44,903 bases of DNA, taken from the NCBI GenBank assembly GCA_007694125.1, contig RECH01000192.1, forward strand, positions 1 through 44,903. Reading direction: 5' to 3'. The position numbers and the translations under genes are program-made. Position 1 is the first letter of the stretch, and every line of letters starts with the position of its first letter. The DNA is from Leptolyngbya sp. DLM2.Bin15. Its GTDB lineage: Bacteria; Cyanobacteriota; Cyanobacteriia; RECH01. Below the pieces are notes generated by a model that worked only from the letters and a program-made list of their open reading frames with translations, did no database searches and was not told the DNA's origin. Positions 42,989-44,691 of the stretch are shown here, piece after piece.

Positions 42989-43216
42989 ATGAAGCAGCAG
43001 TCTTTCGAAGGAACATGGGAAGAAATTCTTCGTTACGCCCCAGAACTAGCTGGACAGCGCGTAAAACTAACCGTGCTATCCAACGAGAGCACACCCCTTC
43101 AAAACGAGACTACCCTGGATCAAGTCTTACAAGGTAGGGTCGGACGAGTTCAATTTCAGCCTTCAAATTTGTCCACACGCACCAAACAAGTCTTCACCGA
43201 TCTCTTGAAGGGCTAA
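42989..43216 (+). CDS. Small antitoxin-like protein, orphan
   Basis: A 75-residue protein, MKQQSFEGTWEEILRYAPELAGQRVKLTVLSNE, followed by a charged tail. The N-terminal beta strand (SFEGTWEEI...) and AGxRVxLTVL look like the AbrB/VapB-type antitoxin proteins found in cyanobacterial toxin-antitoxin pairs. GGAGG lies 8 bases before the ATG. There is no toxin gene next to it; downstream are HIP1 octamers, a candidate small RNA and the convergent Abi gene. It could be an orphan antitoxin or part of the same defence neighbourhood. Confidence 0.65.
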   Translation: MKQQSFEGTWEEILRYAPELAGQRVKLTVLSNESTPLQNETTLDQVLQGRVGRVQFQPSNLSTRTKQVFTDLLKG

Positions 43217-43356: not shown

Positions 43357-43386
43357 TTGACTACATTCTATTGTGTTGAGTATCAT
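43357..43386 (+). promoter_or_regulatory. Promoter of the candidate small RNA
   Basis: A -35 TTGACT (43357-43362), 18-bp spacer and -10 TATCAT (43381-43386). The predicted start is near 43392, directly ahead of three hairpins and a terminator, with no coding frame following. Confidence 0.6.
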
Positions 43387-43391
43387 ACAAG

Positions 43392-43468
43392 TGGAGCTCG
43401 GCTCAGGGGTAGTCGTATGACTGCCGCACCAAACCGCACCAAACCTTAGGTGGCGGTTTTAGTGTTTT
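43392..43468 (+). ncRNA. Candidate small structured RNA facing the Abi gene
   Basis: Predicted 77-nt RNA from the promoter at 43357-43386 to a T-run. It folds into three hairpins: GAGC/GCTC (43394-43404), GGTAGTC/GACTGCC (43408-43425, one G-T pair, GTAT loop) and the terminator AAACCGCACC/GGTGGCGGTTT (43431-43459). A 10-bp tandem duplication, CCGCACCAAA, spans 43424-43443. No open frame of note fits. It is not matched to a known cyanobacterial RNA (Yfr1, Yfr2, 6S were considered). It lies 182 bases from the end of the convergent Abi_2 gene and could be a regulatory RNA or an RNA partner of it. Confidence 0.5.
43431..43468 (+). terminator. Intrinsic terminator of the candidate small RNA
   Basis: AAACCGC-ACC (43431-43440) pairs with GGT-GCGGTTT (43449-43459) with one bulged G (43452), a 10-bp GC-rich stem followed by TTTTAGTGTTTT. 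Its position just after two hairpins supports a short transcript. Confidence 0.7.
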
Positions 43469-43649
43469 AAAGCGAATTATCGAAACAGTAATATTTTATC
43501 CCTCGCACCTGCAAGATCTGATTCTGATGAGGGGTGATCGCTCTTGCCTCGTCAAATAGCAGATTAAACTGCTTGATTCTGCTGCCTAAAGGCAGTTATC
43601 CAGAGGTAGAACACTGCCCTGAATCTTTAAGTTATTCAACGCTCGGCTC

Positions 43650-44576
43650 CTATTCCCATACTGGAAGAGCCATCCAGTCTTCTGGAAAACCCATTCTTGA
43701 TCTATCGACTTTCGGATGTTCTTCCAGTAAGTGTTCTAGTCTTTCTTCCCAGTGTGAATCTTGAGAGATTTTTCTCAGGAGTCTAATGATTACAAATACC
43801 TGAGCAAAAAACATATTATTTTGAGAGACATGATTTCTATATTCCTTCAAAATTTTAGGTTTGATAGTAAAGGTTCGGTTCCAGATCCTGGAATGATGTG
43901 CACATAGATTTCGAAGGTATGACATTGTGTGCAACCATGATTCTAGAATACGGTAGGGAACTGAGAATAAGCCAGCGATCTTCTTCTGCAACCCCGACTC
44001 CAGAGACTTATATATTAACGACACTGTTCCCAAAGAAAGCGTCTCAAATATCATCCAACTAGGAGGAAGTTCTGGGTCATCATAATGCCTCATGTAATGC
44101 TGAATGAATATATCCGACTTGTTTTCTTCAACATCTTTTTTAAGCTTTATCAACCAGTTGGCATGATTAAACGTTTTCTTGTTTTTCTTGCTGGCTTCGC
44201 TCGTCTTAAAAGGCTCTTTCATCAAGAACCAGTGAGAGCCATAGTCAACACTAGCCACATTTGATATCGCTGCTTTTATAGCAACTTCGATGCGTTCAAC
44301 AGCATCCATTATAAGTAGGCGCAGCTTTCGATCGAAAATGTATAAATCTAAGACCTGCTCAAAGCTTACATAGGGCTTGAATTGGTGGTTATCACCGCTT
44401 GCTTCACAATACTGAAAGGGGATGCAGTAAGCAGAGAGCCTATAGTAGCCAATAAATCTTAGGTAGTGACTTGCTACCTCACGATTGTCTATCTTGAGTC
44501 CCCTAGAAACAAGCAAGTCAACCTGCTGTTCTATCGTTAAAGCTGGCTTGCTAAATTTGCTTCTGCTTTTGTCCAC
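43650..44576 (-). CDS. Abi_2 family (AbiF/AbiD-type) HEPN protein, predicted abortive-infection RNase
   Basis: A 308-residue protein of the Abi_2 family (pfam07751), known from lactococcal AbiD/AbiF phage-resistance loci. It shows the family pattern: LTIEQQVDLLVSRGLKI, HYLRFIGYYRLSAYCIPF, FEQVLDLYIFDRKLRLLIM and AVERIEVAIKAAISN, PPSWMIFETLSLGTVSLIYK, and the HEPN catalytic motif RNLCAH (Arg222-His227, RxxxxH) in YLRNLCAHHSRIWNR. HEPN proteins of this type are RNA-cleaving toxins. The start is a GTG at 44576, with AGGAAG about 20 bases upstream, so translation initiation looks weak. The coding sequence is AT-rich and free of HIP1 octamers, fitting horizontal acquisition. It lies downstream of a promoter/small-RNA/terminator unit. 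Confidence 0.88.
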   Translation of the reverse strand: MDKSRSKFSKPALTIEQQVDLLVSRGLKIDNREVASHYLRFIGYYRLSAYCIPFQYCEASGDNHQFKPYVSFEQVLDLYIFDRKLRLLIMDAVERIEVAIKAAISNVASVDYGSHWFLMKEPFKTSEASKKNKKTFNHANWLIKLKKDVEENKSDIFIQHYMRHYDDPELPPSWMIFETLSLGTVSLIYKSLESGLQKKIAGLFSVPYRILESWLHTMSYLRNLCAHHSRIWNRTFTIKPKILKEYRNHVSQNNMFFAQVFVIIRLLRKISQDSHWEERLEHLLEEHPKVDRSRMGFPEDWMALPVWE

Positions 44577-44600: not shown

Positions 44601-44650
44601 CTAAAAAAACAAAACTCACCTAGTGCGCTTCCGAGAGAGGCGAGGTGAGT
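44601..44650 (-). terminator. Hairpin and T-run between promoter and Abi_2 start
   Basis: On the minus strand an 8-bp stem (ACTCACCT/AGGTGAGT) is followed by TTTTGTTTTTTT. It lies between the promoter at 44663-44691 and the GTG at 44576, so it should limit read-through into the Abi_2 gene. Confidence 0.75.
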
Positions 44651-44662: not shown

Positions 44663-44691
44663 ATCCTAAACGCAACTCAAGGTTTTGTCAA
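44663..44691 (-). promoter_or_regulatory. Strong sigma-70-type promoter ahead of Abi_2
   Basis: On the minus strand: consensus -35 TTGACA (44691-44686), 17-bp spacer, -10 TAGGAT (44668-44663). Predicted start is about 44656. The -35 is perfect and the spacing ideal. Confidence 0.75.

Follow-up and report, generated by a model that had tools for sequence, protein, structure and literature searches.

Positions 43357–43468 of the window (the whole 44,903-nucleotide stretch of Leptolyngbya sp. DLM2.Bin15 DNA analyzed here) carry a compact element that a first-pass annotation had described as a near-consensus promoter, three consecutive hairpins and an intrinsic terminator with no coding frame, and each part of this description holds. 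The sigma70-type promoter (43357–43386, +) consists of TTGACT at 43357–43362, a spacer of 18 and TATCAT at 43381–43386, a 10/12 match. The small RNA, ~75–78 nt long and, as argued below, of the DUF3800-associated kind, spans 43391–43468 (+); its segment 43391–43466 is predicted to fold into three hairpins at −31.7 kcal/mol, versus a mean of −22.9 (SD 3.05) for shuffled sequences (z = −2.89; 3 of 200 shuffles at least as stable). Hairpin 1 (43394–43404, +) reads GAGC-UCG-GCUC, and hairpin 2 (43408–43425, +) reads GGUAGUC-GUAU-GACUGCC, its third pair being U43410·G43423. Hairpin 3, together with T runs at 43457–43460 and 43465–43468, forms the intrinsic terminator (43431–43468, +; stem ~43431–43459), whose final bases are shared with the stop codon of a DUF3800 gene remnant. 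The only reading frame in 43357–43468 is a 30-codon TTG frame that is not gene-like. The exact 10-bp duplication reported earlier is present as well, CCGCACCAAA occupying 43424–43433 and again 43434–43443; it occurs in close relatives only and is not general to the RNA family, and its reading as a repeat array was rejected on account of this restriction.

Three features on the opposite strand complete the locus. The DUF3800 remnant (43467–43595, −) retains the last 42 codons of the gene, LPLGSRIKQFNLLFDEARAITPHQNQILQVRGIKYYCFDNSL followed by the stop, and is recognized by a DUF3800-subfamily HMM at E = 3e-4. The Abi_2 gene (43650–44576, −) is a phage-defense gene of the AbiD/AbiF type (PF07751 and PADLOC AbiD; E = 7.7e-56 and 1.9e-79), and its 3′ end at 43650 does lie 182 bases from the RNA element, as had been noted. 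Upstream of Abi_2 is an abiF-type RNA motif (44614–44649, −), which scores 21.4 bits against RF03085, below the gathering score of 37, and is preceded by a promoter-like site found by promoter scan, TTGACA-17-TAGGAT (44663–44691, −).

Scans of the window region alone gave five promoters against 3.7 expected, which is not above chance, and a simple terminator scan of the region did not exceed chance either and did not list the 43431–43468 terminator; the case for an RNA gene therefore rests on comparison. A DNA search of 390 cyanobacterial genomes found relatives of the RNA in G183 (89%), G146 (81%), G056 (73%) and G358/G352 (72–73%), with a further clear relative at a contig end in G367; BLAST matches of 18–37 bases with E > 1e-4 were judged to be chance. 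The window RNA scores 75.9 bits (E = 4e-18) against covariance model R1, in which it is itself included, and the model reaches E ≤ 0.0017 in distant members outside its training set (Litoreibacter, Mesorhizobium). Weak model matches at ten further cyanobacterial loci (L072–L081) were set aside: most coincide with terminator look-alikes or with a tRNA that has a terminator behind it, and one lies inside a coding-like stretch.

Whether homologous loci would carry the hairpins with compensatory changes had been set beforehand as a test, and they do: three-hairpin folds are predicted in cyanobacteria, alphaproteobacteria and one myxobacterium. When 22 RNAs are aligned, 97.4% of the cells are paired and 7 of 16 pairs have changed on both sides, compared with a shuffle mean of 2.2 and at most 2 in slid controls; four of the five pairs of hairpin 1 show such changes. 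Hairpin 2 is near-invariant in cyanobacteria. Across several phyla its third pair is U·G in 19 of 20 RNAs, while the fourth is AU, GC, UA or CG (stems delimited by hand; NGR234, which has U-A there, and the Methylobacterium/Mesorhizobium loci L054 and L056, which fold in another register, were omitted). Since a U·G pair would be A·C on the opposite strand, the RNA strand is the folded strand and under selection. The promoter is likewise kept at the same position, a sigma70-like match of at least 9/12 occurring there in 22 of 27 homologues versus 1.2% of random positions. These comparative data, chiefly the covariation and the conserved promoter position, bear out the earlier suggestion of a separate small RNA, and we conclude from sequence comparison that 43357–43468 is a real small-RNA gene.

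The relatives also identify the gene with which the RNA belongs. In each readable relative from the 390-genome search, the RNA converges on the 3′ end of a gene whose product has GIKYYCF, or a closely similar sequence, as its C-terminus, and Pfam assigns two of these partners to DUF3800 (PF12686; E = 9.9e-9 and 4.5e-14). A protein search of GTDB contigs gave 30 DUF3800 relatives, spread over cyanobacteria, alphaproteobacteria, one Obscuribacterales genome and the myxobacterium Enhygromyxa; these were chosen via the C-terminal motif, which biases the sample to this subfamily. Every one of the 30 is faced by a similarly organized RNA gene on the other strand, which terminates at or close to the stop codon. 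The same holds for rhizobial plasmid copies, with intact modules on plasmids of Sinorhizobium meliloti and Rhizobium etli; RNA relatives occur in Calothrix and Fischerella too, and a convergent hairpin RNA also occupies this place beside the distant DUF3800 genes carried by a Paracoccus phage and a Methylorubrum plasmid. Searching viral collections turned up a single distant DUF3800 (25%), and the RNA core was not found in them. Among the 390 cyanobacterial genomes, the covariance model finds convincing RNA matches in 10 and a protein profile finds six genomes with long DUF3800 genes and two with truncated genes. Each of the six long genes has the RNA next to it; the four RNA-bearing genomes that lack a long gene have the RNA beside a DUF3800 remnant in three cases (the window, G044 and G153) and at a contig end in one (G367). 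This co-occurrence has a Fisher p of 4e-11, uncorrected for relatedness among genomes that are not independent.

The DUF3800 remnant of the window has the GIKYYCF terminus common to intact relatives, and a PF12686 search of the source genome gave no match beyond it, so that by this profile the RNA here is an orphan in a genome without a DUF3800 protein for it to serve. The extreme C-terminal GIKYYCF (e.g., L044:2407–2433) is nearly invariant across phyla, partly because the search was seeded with it.

This history bears on the relation to Abi_2, which had been proposed as a toxin with the RNA as its second RNA partner. The idea draws on their adjacency, 182 bases apart, and on the precedent of RNA antitoxins that restrain Abi_2/AbiF proteins, as in Clostridioides difficile, where an AbiF protein is held by an upstream RNA antitoxin in the RCd22-AbiF pair (PMC12373285). 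Yet when loci with and without Abi_2 were compared, the RNA did not follow Abi_2: none of the 10 other cyanobacterial genomes with an Abi_2 relative had a convincing match, the one hit (G242) falling by chance on a tRNA and terminator. Wherever an intact RNA has a readable flank, what converges on it is DUF3800, whether as a whole gene, a broken one or a remnant, with Synechocystis pSYSX as the sole exception, and in the window the remnant of this ancestral neighbor sits between the RNA and Abi_2. Abi_2 moreover already has an abiF-type RNA upstream; a motif at the same place in three Abi_2 relatives scores 41.0, 43.1 and 51.7 bits against RF03085, and the RNA at 44614–44649 is probably the cognate RNA of Abi_2. 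An antitoxin role toward Abi_2 is thus very improbable. The gene order indicates instead that Abi_2 is a neighbor and not the ancestral partner of the 43391–43468 RNA, which it faces by accident, and that it occupies the place of the lost DUF3800 gene, with an abiF-type RNA of its own upstream. Same-genus relatives align with the compared stretch only to ~42886, which places the RNA and Abi_2 in a strain-variable region. An RNA that faces a toxin gene may, in general, be the leftover of another system.

What the RNA does can be approached through its partner. A high-confidence structure model of DUF3800 (pLDDT 89) finds RNase HII as its best fold match (1eke, probability 0.99, E = 0.03) and RNase HI next; the Foldseek E-values are weak, 0.03 being the best, and an RNase H fold is also stated in PMC10910872 and PMC12669027. 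DUF3800 is probably an RNase H-like nuclease. The predicted fold, and the presence of DUF3800 as an accessory component of certain V-A2 and VI-F CRISPR loci (PMC12669027), would suit an RNA that guides or scaffolds an RNase H-fold effector, comparable to the omega RNA of TnpB/IscB; however, the ~75-nt RNA ends in a terminator with no variable guide-length segment, and even distant cyanobacteria share an almost identical core, which makes such a role highly doubtful.

The preferred reading, which we regard as very probably correct, is that the window element is the RNA half that is left of a DUF3800-RNA module, the module comprising a three-hairpin RNA that has a sigma70-type promoter of its own, and a convergent DUF3800 protein of predicted RNase H fold. 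Linkage and covariation suggest a direct physical partnership, in which the DUF3800 protein would bind the RNA and recognize hairpin 2 with its U·G pair. The RNA would then restrain a putative toxic nuclease, as in type III toxin–antitoxin and AbiF systems, and where the DUF3800 mRNA runs past its stop codon into the complement of the RNA, antisense coupling could be added.

The way in which modules decay speaks to this antitoxin role. The RNA is retained although DUF3800 is broken or gone in G183, G352, L041, L050, L060, pSYSX and the window, all intact DUF3800 genes in the loci compared had the RNA beside them, and in G044 and G153, which keep a C-terminal DUF3800 remnant, the RNA itself is decaying. 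Its own promoter, its retention when DUF3800 breaks and its constant presence beside the intact gene fit an RNA antitoxin, and by analogy we favor the proposal that the RNA holds a putatively toxic nuclease in check, at a little less than an even chance. The alternative that the RNA is a required cofactor of DUF3800 would fit nearly as well, and the asymmetry of retention may merely reflect the small mutation target that the RNA presents.

A well-kept orphan, an unannotated RNA copy on plasmid pSYSX of Synechocystis PCC 6803 (L091, about 93594–93673; RNA copy at 93605–93673), lies within a type I restriction locus (hsdM-hsdS-Fic-[RNA]-higBA-hsdR) and has neither DUF3800 nor Abi_2 in its surroundings; the texts searched for expression of the pSYSX or R. 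etli copies contained nothing on it. That orphans such as this and the window RNA keep their structure would be expected if the RNA were an independent regulator, acting in trans on distant mRNAs or as a cis-antisense RNA on the 3′ end of the DUF3800 mRNA with no need to bind the protein, and because the two genes converge and overlap at the stop codon, antisense pairing is possible wherever the mRNA extends. Antisense pairing alone, however, requires neither compensatory hairpins nor a U·G pair invariant on one strand; comparison across phyla shows no conserved single-stranded seed outside the hairpins, and in 390 genomes the RNA occurs without DUF3800 or its traces only in the one contig-end case. 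We regard an independent regulator as unlikely. Returning to the module, a broader proposal, rather unlikely but worth stating, is that DUF3800-RNA modules constitute a widespread, undescribed convergent type of RNA antitoxin with an RNase H-fold toxin, whose orphans would persist as anti-addiction or immunity RNAs that protect against modules entering the cell.

An Rfam search, recommended in the first-pass annotation as a check, produced no identification: neither the RNA in the window nor those of its relatives match any family of Rfam 15, even at permissive E-values, and HOTAIR_3 and miRNA-type matches in both are chance. Closest in kind are the DUF3800-associated RNAs of Rfam (RF02969, DUF3800-I; RF02968, DUF3800-IX), likewise structured RNAs beside a DUF3800 gene, for which PMC10910872 cites Weinberg et al. 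2017. Like these, the RNA studied here adjoins DUF3800 and has a conserved, covarying structure; it is set apart from them by the Rfam models and by length (115 positions in DUF3800-I versus ~75 nt). Neither it nor its relatives match DUF3800-I, -IX or the sister models, and the RF02969 search gave no match in the genomes tried, where the control was likewise silent. As Rfam lists such RNAs and no model fits, we take this one to be a new DUF3800-associated RNA, orphaned here.

Other known systems are alike in part. The abiF RNA (RF03085) with AbiF/AbiD likewise couples a small RNA to one toxic nuclease-like protein, but that RNA lies upstream on the same strand, whereas the window RNA lies downstream on the opposite strand with other hairpins and another protein family; 43391–43468 does not match RF03085, and 44614–44649 does so only below the gathering score. 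Type III toxin–antitoxin systems (ToxIN, CptIN, TenpIN) resemble the module in its proposed action, an RNA inhibiting a nuclease. They differ in that an array of tandem repeats precedes the protein gene, with array, terminator and toxin on one strand, where the module has opposite strands, two 10-bp copies confined to this genome and close relatives, and a protein of predicted RNase H fold and not of ToxN type. Solitary antitoxins of decayed toxin–antitoxin modules offer a further parallel, the RNA half outliving the protein half (as in the window and on pSYSX), although here the antitoxin role itself is inferred.

An RNA absent from Rfam thus recurs in several phyla with one architecture, three hairpins with a nearly invariant U·G and a convergent end at the stop codon, and the module of RNA and DUF3800 spans cyanobacteria to proteobacteria while being broken in this genome. 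DUF3800-associated RNAs are catalogued, yet we found no report in the literature on what they do; relatives in tractable hosts (Synechocystis PCC 6803, S. meliloti, R. etli, Calothrix, Fischerella) make the function of DUF3800-RNA directly testable.

The surroundings of the modules were compared with control loci by PADLOC and Pfam (107 flanking versus 70 control proteins). Defense genes are not enriched around them, so a defense-island hypothesis was rejected, and many modules sit among housekeeping genes; single modules or copies do lie inside defense-type islands (pSYSX; R. etli p42a). On p42a (L093, 10044–17837), the module adjoins genes annotated as TIR domain, caspase family and E2 ligase fold, and at L006 a module lies near genes that, by eye, look like MazF-type and HicAB-type toxin–antitoxin genes. 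The window has, in its strain-variable stretch, a 75-residue antitoxin-like frame (42989–43216, +) with no adjacent toxin and no Pfam match. Finally, L036 4105–4390 (−) matches RF02514 (5′ ureB sRNA), probably because it is antisense to a urease gene.
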